Part shown: piece by piece, positions 21,742-24,823 of the stretch
How the letters are laid out: each line of letters opens with the position of its first letter
How positions within the stretch are numbered: position 1 is the first letter of the stretch
Origin: an uncultured SAR86 cluster bacterium
GTDB lineage: Bacteria; Pseudomonadota; Gammaproteobacteria; Magnimaribacterales; D2472
Direction: 5' to 3'
NCBI GenBank assembly: GCA_902520495.1
Contig: CABYNW010000006.1
Location: 1-50,305 of the forward strand
DNA length: 50,305 nucleotides
Program-made: the position numbers and the translations under genes
Notes under the pieces: generated by a model
The model's input: the letters and a program-made list of their open reading frames with translations, nothing else
What the model was told of the DNA's origin: nothing
Databases searched by the model: none

Positions 21742-21781
21742 ATTCTTATAATTATATCTAAAATCTGTTAAAATCTATTAA

Positions 21782-22216
21782 ATGAACATATTAGTTTTAA
21801 ATGGTCCCAACCTAAATTTGCTTGGCTTAAGAGAAGAAGATATTTATGGATCCGATTCACTTAAAGACATTGAAAACAGACTTAATATAATTGCTGAAAA
21901 AAATAATTGTAAATTATATTTCTATCAGAGCAACGCAGAGCATGAACTTATAGATGTAATACAAAGTTCATTAAATAAGGATATCGATGCAATTATTTTT
22001 AATCCTGCTGCATATACTCATACAAGTGTAGCTTTAAGAGATTCCTTGTTAGCAGTGAAGATTCCTTTTTTTGAAGTTCATATATCTGATGTTGAATCGA
22101 GAGAAGATTTTAGAAAAAAATCATATTTTAGTGATATAGCCGAAAAGGTTTTTAGTGGTCATGGAGTTAAAGGCTACGAACTTGCTTTAAATGAAGCATT
22201 AAATATAAATAGGTAA
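21782..22216 (+). CDS. aroQ: 3-dehydroquinate dehydratase, type II
   Basis: Third step of the shikimate pathway. 144 aa. [15 protein letters not shown] at the N-terminus, YG in [10 protein letters not shown] (catalytic Tyr), [17 protein letters not shown] and [15 protein letters not shown] are family features. Two usually firm motifs vary: NHEGELID reads NAEHELID, and the His in SNxHAREPFR is Glu. It lies between the DsbD-like domain and the accB remnant. Confidence 0.93.
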
Positions 22217-22220
22217 AATT

Positions 22221-22379
22221 ATGGATATAAGAAAAATTAAAACGCTAATCGAAATGTTAGAAGAGTCAAATCTAAAAGAAATTGAAGTAAGTCAAGGAGA
22301 TGAATCTGTAAGAATTTCTAAGCAATCTGATGATATCAAAGTTGATAAAGATAATAGTTCTCCAGATAAAATAGATTAG
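22221..22379 (+). CDS. accB: AccB (biotin carboxyl carrier protein) N-terminal domain only
   Basis: Open frame of 52 codons, 4 bp after aroQ, that begins [16 protein letters not shown] and continues [13 protein letters not shown]. This is the N-terminal domain of acetyl-CoA carboxylase BCCP, about two-thirds identical over 34 residues to the E. coli protein as I recall it. It stops (TAG at 22377-22379) before the linker and the biotinyl domain with the AMKM motif, and leuS starts 38 bp later, so neither the rest of accB nor accC is present. The frame is intact with a normal start. It may be a relic of accB-accC or a retained, biotin-less interaction domain. Confidence 0.8.
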
Positions 22380-22417
22380 GTAAAGGCAAAATTTAGCCAA
22401 ATCGAAAAGTAATAATA

Positions 22418-24823
22418 ATGAGTTCAAATTATAAACCCCAATTAATTGAAAAAAATATTCAAGAAAGCTGGGATAAGCAAAATAAATATGTCACCAGGAT
22501 AGACGATAGAGAAAAATATTATTGTTTATCAATGTTTCCATATCCGTCTGGAAAACTTCATATGGGACATGTTAGAAACTACACCATTGGGGATGTGATT
22601 TCTCGATATAAAAGAATGAAAAATTTTAATGTATTTCAGCCTATGGGGTGGGACGCATTTGGGCTACCAGCAGAAAATGCAGCTATTGCTAATAAAGTTA
22701 ATCCAAAAGATTGGACAAGCCAAAATATAGAAAATATGAAAGTTCAACTTAAATCTCTTGGATTGAGTTATGACTGGTCAAGAGAACTAAGGACATGTGA
22801 TCCAGATTATTATAAATGGGAACAAGTTATATTTAAAAAATTCTTTGATGCCGGTTTAGTATATCGAAAAAAATCCATGGTTAACTGGGATCCTGTTGAC
22901 GAAACAGTTTTAGCAAATGAGCAGGTTATTGATGGAAAAGGTTGGAGATCTGGTGCCCAAGTAGAAATCAAAGAGATAGATCAATGGTTTATCAAAATCA
23001 CCAAATATGCTGAAGAGCTTCTTGATTCACTAGAAACTCTTGATTGGCCAGAAAATGTTAAAACAATGCAAAAAAATTGGATTGGTAAATCTTATGGGGC
23101 AGAAATTAAATATAGGCTTGATGGCTCTAAAGATTTTTTAACAACTTTTTCTACTAGGCCTGATACTATATTTGGGGTTTCATTCTTAGCTATTTCTCCA
23201 AATCATAGTCTCGCAATCAAATTAGCAGAAAATAATAAAGAAATTTTTGATTTCTTAGAAAAATGTAAAGAAATAAAGGCTGCCGAAGCAGATATTGCAA
23301 AAGCAGATAAATTTGGAATAAATACAAATATAAATGTTATACACCCCCTGACAGGTGACAAAATTCCTATATGGATTGGAAATTTTGTTTTACTAGATTA
23401 TGGAACTGGTGTTGTTATGGGAGTACCAGCTCATGACGCTAGAGATCATGAATTTGCAACAAAATATAAATTAGATATTAAACAGGTTATTGAAACAGAT
23501 AATAATGAACTTCCAATTGTAGAAAAAGGAGAGCTTATAAATTCAGAAAATTTTAATGGAATATCATCTGATATTGCTTCAAAAAAAATTATAAATGAAC
23601 TTATAAGATTAAAATTAGGTGAGGAGCTAATACAGTTTAGATTAAGAGATTGGGGAGTAAGTAGGCAAAGATATTGGGGATGTCCGATTCCCGTAACATA
23701 TAAAGATAATGTCCCAAAAGTTATAGATGAGATTGATATGCCGGTTGAACTTCCAAAATTAAAAGAAGACTCACTCCCAATCCCATTAAGTCAAAATAAA
23801 GACTTCATAGAAATCAGTGAGAATCTAAAAAGAGAGGGTGATACTTTTGATACCTTTATGGACTCATCATGGTACTATGCAAGATTCACATCATCTAACA
23901 ACAATACAGAAATATTTGATGAAAATACTAGATACTGGCTCCCAGTAGATCTTTATATTGGTGGAATCGAACACGCTATCTTACATCTTTTATATTCAAG
24001 ATTCTTTCATAAAGCATTAAGAGACATTGGTTTGGTTGAGGGCGATGAGCCATTCAAGAGATTATTGACTCAAGGAATGGTTCTAAAAGATGGCGCCAAG
24101 ATGTCAAAATCAAAAGGAAATACAGTTGATCCTCAATCATATATTGAAAAATATGGAGCTGATACAGTAAGGCTATATATGATGTTCACCTCTCCTCCAG
24201 AACAAAGTCTTGAATGGAGCGAATCATCTGTAGAGGGATCTGCTAGATTCTTAAAGAAAGTATGGAATTTAGTAAATAAAAGAAAATACAACAACCTCGA
24301 TGATCAATTTAAGTTCTCTGAAGATGAACTTGCTGTAAGAAGAAAATCTCATGCAACATTAAAAAAAGTAGAGAATGATTACGAAGTAAGATTTTCTTTT
24401 AATACTGCAATTGCTGCAATTATGGAACTACTTAATTTTATACCTGAAGACTTTAAATATGCTGAGGCTTCTAAATCAAAAAAGTATTGCCTTGATGAAG
24501 CTATATTATTTATATTACAGATGCTATTTCCAATTGCGCCCCATATATGTGAACATTTATGGAAAGAGTTTTACGAAGAAGATTCTGATATCGAAGCTTC
24601 ATGGCCAAAGGTAAATGAAAGTTTATTGGAGGTGGAGGAATTTGAGTTAATCATTCAGGTTAATGGAAAGGTAAGAGGTAGGGTTAAGATACATAAAAGC
24701 GCTGAGCAAGAAGAAGTTAAAAATATTGCGATAAATGTTGAAAACGTGAAAAATTTTATAAACAGTTCAGAGATTAAGAAAACTATATACGTTAAAGATA
24801 AACTTATTAATTTCGTAATCTAA
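22418..24823 (+). CDS. leuS: Leucyl-tRNA synthetase
   Basis: Class I synthetase charging tRNA-Leu. 801 aa. [11 protein letters not shown] carries the HIGH motif (48-51) and KMSKS is at 561-565; the CP1 editing domain is present ([12 protein letters not shown]). It is about 60 residues shorter than E. coli LeuRS. The gap lies just before [19 protein letters not shown] joins what in E. coli and Pseudomonas is separated by the leucine-specific domain. No T-box or other leader structure is seen. First gene of leuS-lptE-holA. Confidence 0.97.

Follow-up and report, generated by a model that had tools for sequence, protein, structure and literature searches.

A free AccB N-terminal domain retained in SAR86 bacteria that appear to have lost heteromeric acetyl-CoA carboxylase

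Results

A short AccB-like frame lies between aroQ and leuS

The window analysed is a stretch of 50,305 nucleotides from an uncultured SAR86 cluster bacterium, whose genome (G000) comprises 1.088 Mb in 36 contigs and is 85% complete. Between aroQ and leuS, the forward strand carries an intact frame of 52 codons (22221-22379), which starts with an ATG at 22221, ends with a stop codon at 22379 and encodes a product of 52 amino acids, with 4 nt separating it from the aroQ frame and 38 nt from leuS (Table 1). Residues 1-40 of the product match positions 1-40 of TIGR00531, the NCBIfam model of the biotin carboxyl carrier protein (BCCP, AccB), with an E value of 3.7e-8; the score of 34 bits is far under the whole-protein cut-off of 115.2 bits because the product is only a fragment. 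A PDB search allowing E values up to 1 yields a single match, to E. coli BCCP (4HR7) over residues 1-36 (E 3.3e-9), and no Pfam family is matched above cut-off. Together, these matches bear out an earlier note on this DNA, which took the frame for the BCCP N-terminal domain. The note was also right that the biotinyl domain and accC are missing and that leuS comes next, aroQ and leuS being identified by Pfam. The frame ends at residue 52 and lacks the biotinyl domain with its biotinylated lysine (PF00364 matches above cut-off fall in other proteins), and the short protein thus cannot carry biotin.

The product is predicted by AlphaFold2 to form a helix-hairpin module of 34 residues with a disordered tail. 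The model has a helix at residues 3-15 and a two-stranded hairpin (strands 20-25 and 28-33), with pLDDT of 90-91 over residues 1-30 and low values from about residue 40 onward. A fold search of the PDB gave no relatives at E up to 0.001. Just upstream of aroQ lies TCTGTTAAAATC, a promoter-like element that is similar in genomes with and without full accB, as read by eye from an alignment of 28 genomes.

Table 1. Features at the aroQ-leuS locus (window coordinates) and at the former accD site (contig coordinates)
Feature	Location	Strand	Basis
TCTGTTAAAATC, putative promoter-like element just upstream of aroQ	21764..21775	+	alignment of 28 genomes, by eye
aroQ, class II dehydroquinase, upstream neighbour	21782..22216	+	PF01220, 181 bits
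Codons 1-34 of the free AccB N-terminal domain	22221..22322	+	TIGR00531, selection counts, AlphaFold2
Variable tail (residues 35-52) and stop codon	22323..22379	+	variation between genomes, low pLDDT
Gap of 38 nt to leuS; elsewhere the site of the remaining accB and the whole of accC	22380..22417	+	locus comparison
leuS, downstream neighbour	22418..24823	+	Pfam leucyl-tRNA synthetase domains
Malonyl-CoA decarboxylase, G000 contig C3 (others at L372, L374, L375, L377)	L376:17069-18322		

The acetyl-CoA carboxylase genes are jointly absent from 17 genomes of the genus

Genome-wide profile searches of G000 detected neither a full accB nor accA or accD, and no accC match exceeded its cut-off. Three proteins match PF00364 above cut-off: the alpha chain of an acyl-CoA carboxylase (641 aa) and two 2-oxoacid dehydrogenase acyltransferases, i.e. 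lipoyl proteins. A full-length accB in the same strain, which the earlier note had named as the sign of an assembly error, was thus looked for and not found. The note's first option, a deletion relic with a complete accB elsewhere, is ruled out by the failure to find a second accB and by the strong purifying selection on the frame described below.

Among the 34 genomes of the genus, the domain is detected in 28, of which 17 have only the short frame (51-58 aa) and 11 have full accB (144-147 aa) followed by accC. The distance from the accB stop to the leuS start is 1342-1347 nt in the 11 full-accB genomes and 16-53 nt in the 17 short-frame genomes, and the gene order around aroQ-leuS is the same with and without acetyl-CoA carboxylase (ACC). 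In the remaining six, the locus is cut or leuS is missing from the assembly: G014, G023, G032 and G033 show no leuS match, leuS of G004 is cut by a contig end, and leuS of G013 lies next to a partial accC that a contig end truncates. None of the 34 genomes thus shows an intact aroQ-leuS junction without the domain.

Profile searches found accA, accC and accD all missing from each of the 17 short-frame genomes. Across the genus, accC exceeds its cut-off only in the 11 full-accB genomes, and matches to its model below cut-off are the carboxylase alpha chain, frames the size of carbamoyl-phosphate synthase and the partial accC of G013. The accA gene is present at full strength in 13 genomes (all eleven accBC genomes, G013 and G023), and a further accA-model match in short-frame G021 (24 bits, above cut-off) falls within the carboxylase beta chain. 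The accD gene is above cut-off in 11 genomes, namely nine of the eleven accBC genomes plus G004 and G023. The two exceptions, G009 and G027 (71% and 63% complete), have accA, accB and accC with accD not found, which may be a gap or a transitional state. Furthermore, AccA, AccD, AccC and full AccB were compared by tblastn (E up to 0.01) with short-frame genomes over 27 stretches, nine at former accA/accD sites and 18 at the accB site; besides one weak longer AccB alignment in G018, only the N-terminal part of AccB was found. A full-length accB elsewhere or in a gap is ruled out by the searches of the 34 genus genomes and of G034, a one-contig genome of another genus. Some SAR86 bacteria therefore appear to have lost heteromeric ACC while keeping a 34-residue piece of AccB nearly unchanged.

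Short frames occur outside the genus

BCCP is matched above cut-off in 87 of 120 relatives; the 33 without such a match are 23 genus members and ten genomes of other genera. Two genomes outside the genus look like the short-frame type, with accC sought, and found missing, in the aroQ-leuS interval. One is G034 (one contig of 1,229,821 bases, 95% complete), which has the short frame and no accA or accD by PF01039. The other is G120, which was reached by way of a named SAR86 contig and falls outside the genus in the LeuS-AroQ tree; it has a frame of 53 aa and a single PF01039 match, which is partial and ends with its contig. In both, PF01039 finds only the acyl-CoA carboxylase beta chain. Nine of the ten other-genus genomes without a BCCP match above cut-off, G034 among them, were examined for ACC genes; eight of these retain accD and seven also accA (going by how long the frame is and which part of PF01039 it matches), so that the missing accB is more likely a gap there. 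The tenth, G068, has a near full-length BCCP match under the cut-off. G077 (one contig, 95% complete) has accA-like and accD-like matches, but no BCCP match above cut-off and no match to the N-terminal domain.

All 19 short-frame genomes found keep the frame intact with codons 1-34 nearly unchanged, and this comparison of the locus in relatives shows that the frame is not an assembly error. Among 80 named loci kept of 147, 17 are short frames, all from SAR86, and 63 are full length. Viral copies of the domain were sought as well, and none of 24 pattern matches was confirmed.

Codons 1-34 are under extreme purifying selection

Selection was estimated from Nei-Gojobori counts with Jukes-Cantor correction. 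Over codons 1-34, pooled dN/dS is 0.013 in clade A, 0 in clade B and 0.025 in clade C, where pooling counts related pairs repeatedly and clade B is one pair; the corresponding value for the 11 full-length genes is 0.035, and LeuS pairs give 0.06-0.12. In five non-overlapping short-frame pairs, 25 synonymous changes over 98.0 sites compare with one nonsynonymous change over 412.0 sites. Individual pairs show the same pattern, with 9 synonymous and 0 nonsynonymous changes between G000 and G012 and 18 and 0 between G008 and G030, P values for these counts presuming equal and independent site rates. The tail (residues 35-52) is under looser selection and strongly variable among genomes, with a pooled pS of 0.267 and pN of 0.090 in the five pairs, one of which has no tail change at all. 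The AccB N-terminal domain is also well conserved across 30 aligned gammaproteobacterial sequences. The junction sequences can be aligned among clade A genomes and, less closely, among those of clade C, which suggests that the deletion is probably shared there and that the conservation postdates the loss. The frameshifts and neutral evolution that the earlier note named as signs of decay in relatives are thus not seen, and its argument against rapid decay holds, the frame being intact in 19 genomes and strongly selected.

In five short-frame genomes, the former accD site carries malonyl-CoA decarboxylase

ACC is generally regarded as the required malonyl-CoA source for bacterial fatty-acid synthesis. 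The ACC-type loci examined have accD flanked by trpA on one side and, on the other, by a dedD-like SPOR-domain gene, cvpA and a neighbour that we take to be purF, and Pfam confirms trpA, SPOR and CvpA around this site in G000. Malonyl-CoA decarboxylase (PF05292, 301-308 bits) occupies the place of accD in all five short-frame genus members examined (G000, G002, G017, G030 and G031), and G034 has <100 nt there. The accA gene is gone from between the genes for DNA polymerase III alpha and a PP-loop protein (tilS-like) in all three genomes examined (G003, G018 and G030), with the gene identities backed by Pfam in G030. The malonyl-CoA decarboxylase of G031 is closer to that of G017 (88% identity) than to that of G030 (86%), whereas each of the five neighbour proteins compared for both pairs gives the reverse order, which points to recombinational exchange between lineages.

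The fatty-acid genes are retained. Of the 17 short-frame genomes, 15 have a fabD match (E no higher than 7.8e-74), which in some, G000 included (254.3 bits against 260.9), falls just under the cut-off, and fabD is followed by fabG-like and acyl carrier protein genes in G000 and in the viewed loci of both types. Malonyl-CoA is therefore probably still in use, and its source in the short-frame genomes may be malonate, at which these loci hint. A malonyl-CoA synthetase was not found by motif among the stretches scanned, and against the malonyl-CoA synthase model, with its cut-off of 558 bits, the synthetase beside the G000 carboxylase reaches 317.7 bits. With MatB and MatC, biotin-starved E. coli is reported to grow on malonate (PMC12303837), and a malonate-based life is therefore possible.

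ACC was lost in several lineages

The short-frame genomes G000, G012 and G021 cluster with G009 and G027, which carry accBC, and are split from the remaining short-frame genomes with support of 100 (LeuS-HolA-AroQ), 98 (LeuS-AroQ), 100 (fab locus) and 100 (six-gene tree). Five losses fit the LeuS-AroQ tree when only losses are allowed, counted by eye on a tree with several weak inner branches. The main groups of the LeuS tree reappear in that of AccC, with weak nodes, which favours loss over regain of ACC; exchange of malonyl-CoA decarboxylase and the position of G004 complicate this picture. G004 falls among clade C genomes in the fab tree and has accD in its normal place, with no malonyl-CoA decarboxylase there, and ACC may thus be gained and lost more rapidly than a simple ancient loss would imply. 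The accD of G004 is on contig C12 (L105), possibly a misplaced contig.

Discussion

A function for the 52-residue product is strongly supported, as a piece of AccB kept almost unchanged after loss of the enzyme probably has a job of its own. The short protein starts like the BCCP of heteromeric ACC and differs from it in having neither linker nor biotinyl domain, and in occurring, in 17 genus genomes, where AccC, AccA and AccD are absent. As its second option, the earlier note had suggested that the N-terminal domain is kept on its own, for instance to regulate the carboxylase complex or to act as its partner. Retention of the domain stands; the partnership fails for ACC, the other subunits of which are gone from these genomes. 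Furthermore, constraint on the domain is as strong in genomes lacking ACC as in those that have it. AccC, AccA and AccD are therefore not its main source in these cells, and the proposed interaction with a non-ACC partner probably already constrains the domain inside full-length AccB.

The short frame is not a product of misassembly, nor is it a relic in decay. Although the loss of the remaining accB and of accC is real, we give next to no chance to the idea that the frame is just what a recent deletion or a faulty assembly left behind, given that it is intact in 19 genomes, including single-contig G034, that 8 of 17 named short-frame contigs have titles that do not call them MAGs (isolate names of the AG and AH kind presumably denote single-cell genomes), and that purifying selection acts between short-frame genomes. 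A relic would also need all losses to be very recent and separate, which the junctions aligning within clades A and C oppose. The position of the frame directly between aroQ and leuS in 17 genus genomes could suggest that it sets leuS expression in cis, by translation coupling or as a leader peptide, with no protein acting in trans. This is very improbable, since synonymous sites vary freely while residues are fixed, and coupling requires no specific residues; constraint on a stalling peptide would be expected near the stop codon, which is the variable part.

The free domain could instead be a small subunit of the remaining biotin-dependent acyl-CoA carboxylase (fused alpha chain of 641 aa, beta chain of 551 aa), its hairpin joining biotin carboxylase dimers and perhaps enabling malonyl-CoA synthesis. 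In BC1 of Chloroflexus aurantiacus, a fused BC-BCCP, the BCCP N-terminal hairpin is reported to serve oligomerisation separately from the biotinyl core: it builds the tetramer, and without it the biotin carboxylase is not effectively active (PMC11077971). The SAR86 prediction contains such a hairpin, but that of BC1 lies inside the fused chain of a working ACC. The AccE/PccE epsilon subunits of actinobacterial acyl-CoA carboxylases are likewise small and non-catalytic and would be comparable if the domain does partner the carboxylase, except that the SAR86 protein derives from AccB. The beta chain is present in 16 of 19 short-frame genomes, and in the others (G003, G020 and G022) matches to its region end at contig ends. 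However, no site in the alpha or beta chain separates genomes with ACC from those without it (at least 80% agreement within each group, groups differing), bar one column at the C-terminal end of the alpha chain that has four letters in all, and no convincing adaptation of this carboxylase to ACC loss was thus found. In both groups, SAR86 AccC and the alpha chain are unlike in the segment expected to hold the contact residues of BC1, and a carboxylase making malonyl-CoA would be opposed by the malonyl-CoA decarboxylase encoded at the accD site. The carboxylase operon (L318, G000 contig C3:40000-54000; L317, L319-L349), with an AtuA-family gene adjacent, comes in two strongly diverged types, and both occur with and without ACC, which further weakens the link. 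The trees of these types depart from the species, the type of G034 being close to that of genus g1 members. We consider this partnership unlikely. Another ACC-independent partner, in fatty-acid synthesis, translation or nitrogen signalling, would fit the undiminished constraint and the conservation across gammaproteobacterial sequences, but no candidate has emerged from the analysis or from the fold search, and we find this possibility doubtful too.

The persistence of gene order and of the promoter-like element, with a remaining carboxylase that shows no sign of adapting, leads us to choose, with modest confidence, a regulatory role: the free AccB N-terminal domain would function independently of ACC and act in trans to damp its own operon (aroQ, leuS), for which we estimate a probability of about 0.4. 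The primary paper on autoregulation by E. coli AccB is said to be that of James and Cronan in 2004. A regulatory role in autoregulation of the operon has been ascribed to the E. coli AccB N-terminal domain (PMC3896788). It is the same domain, housed there in a working AccB and, judging by sequence, a separate protein without accC in SAR86. SAR86 lineages would thus have lost accA, accC, accD and the biotinyl part of accB, and the N-terminal domain, retained under strong selection, may act in trans with a non-ACC partner and continue to lower transcription of its own operon, with malonyl-CoA for the retained fatty-acid genes made otherwise, e.g. from malonate. Three points count against autoregulation: E. 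coli AccB is described as having no DNA-binding motif (PMC11602165), no operator-like dyad is seen by eye before aroQ, and so strictly kept a regulator is unexpected in a 1.1-Mb genome. The partner-or-regulator idea of the earlier note may hold for a different carboxylase or for regulation of the operon.

A search of titles and abstract openings, in which subscription journals are thinly covered, gave no earlier report of a free AccB domain or of ACC-less SAR86. We put at even odds that SAR86 bacteria in which ACC was replaced, with malonyl-CoA decarboxylase at the accD place and malonyl-CoA presumably coming from malonate, have split two roles of AccB and retained a protein of about 52 residues for the second. 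Evolution has here made a natural domain separation, sparing, in several lineages, only about 34 AccB residues of all the ACC genes. The old hint of a regulatory or structural role for the AccB N-terminal domain thereby becomes directly testable in E. coli, and ocean bacteria without ACC but with fabD would rely on an unrecognised source of malonyl-CoA.
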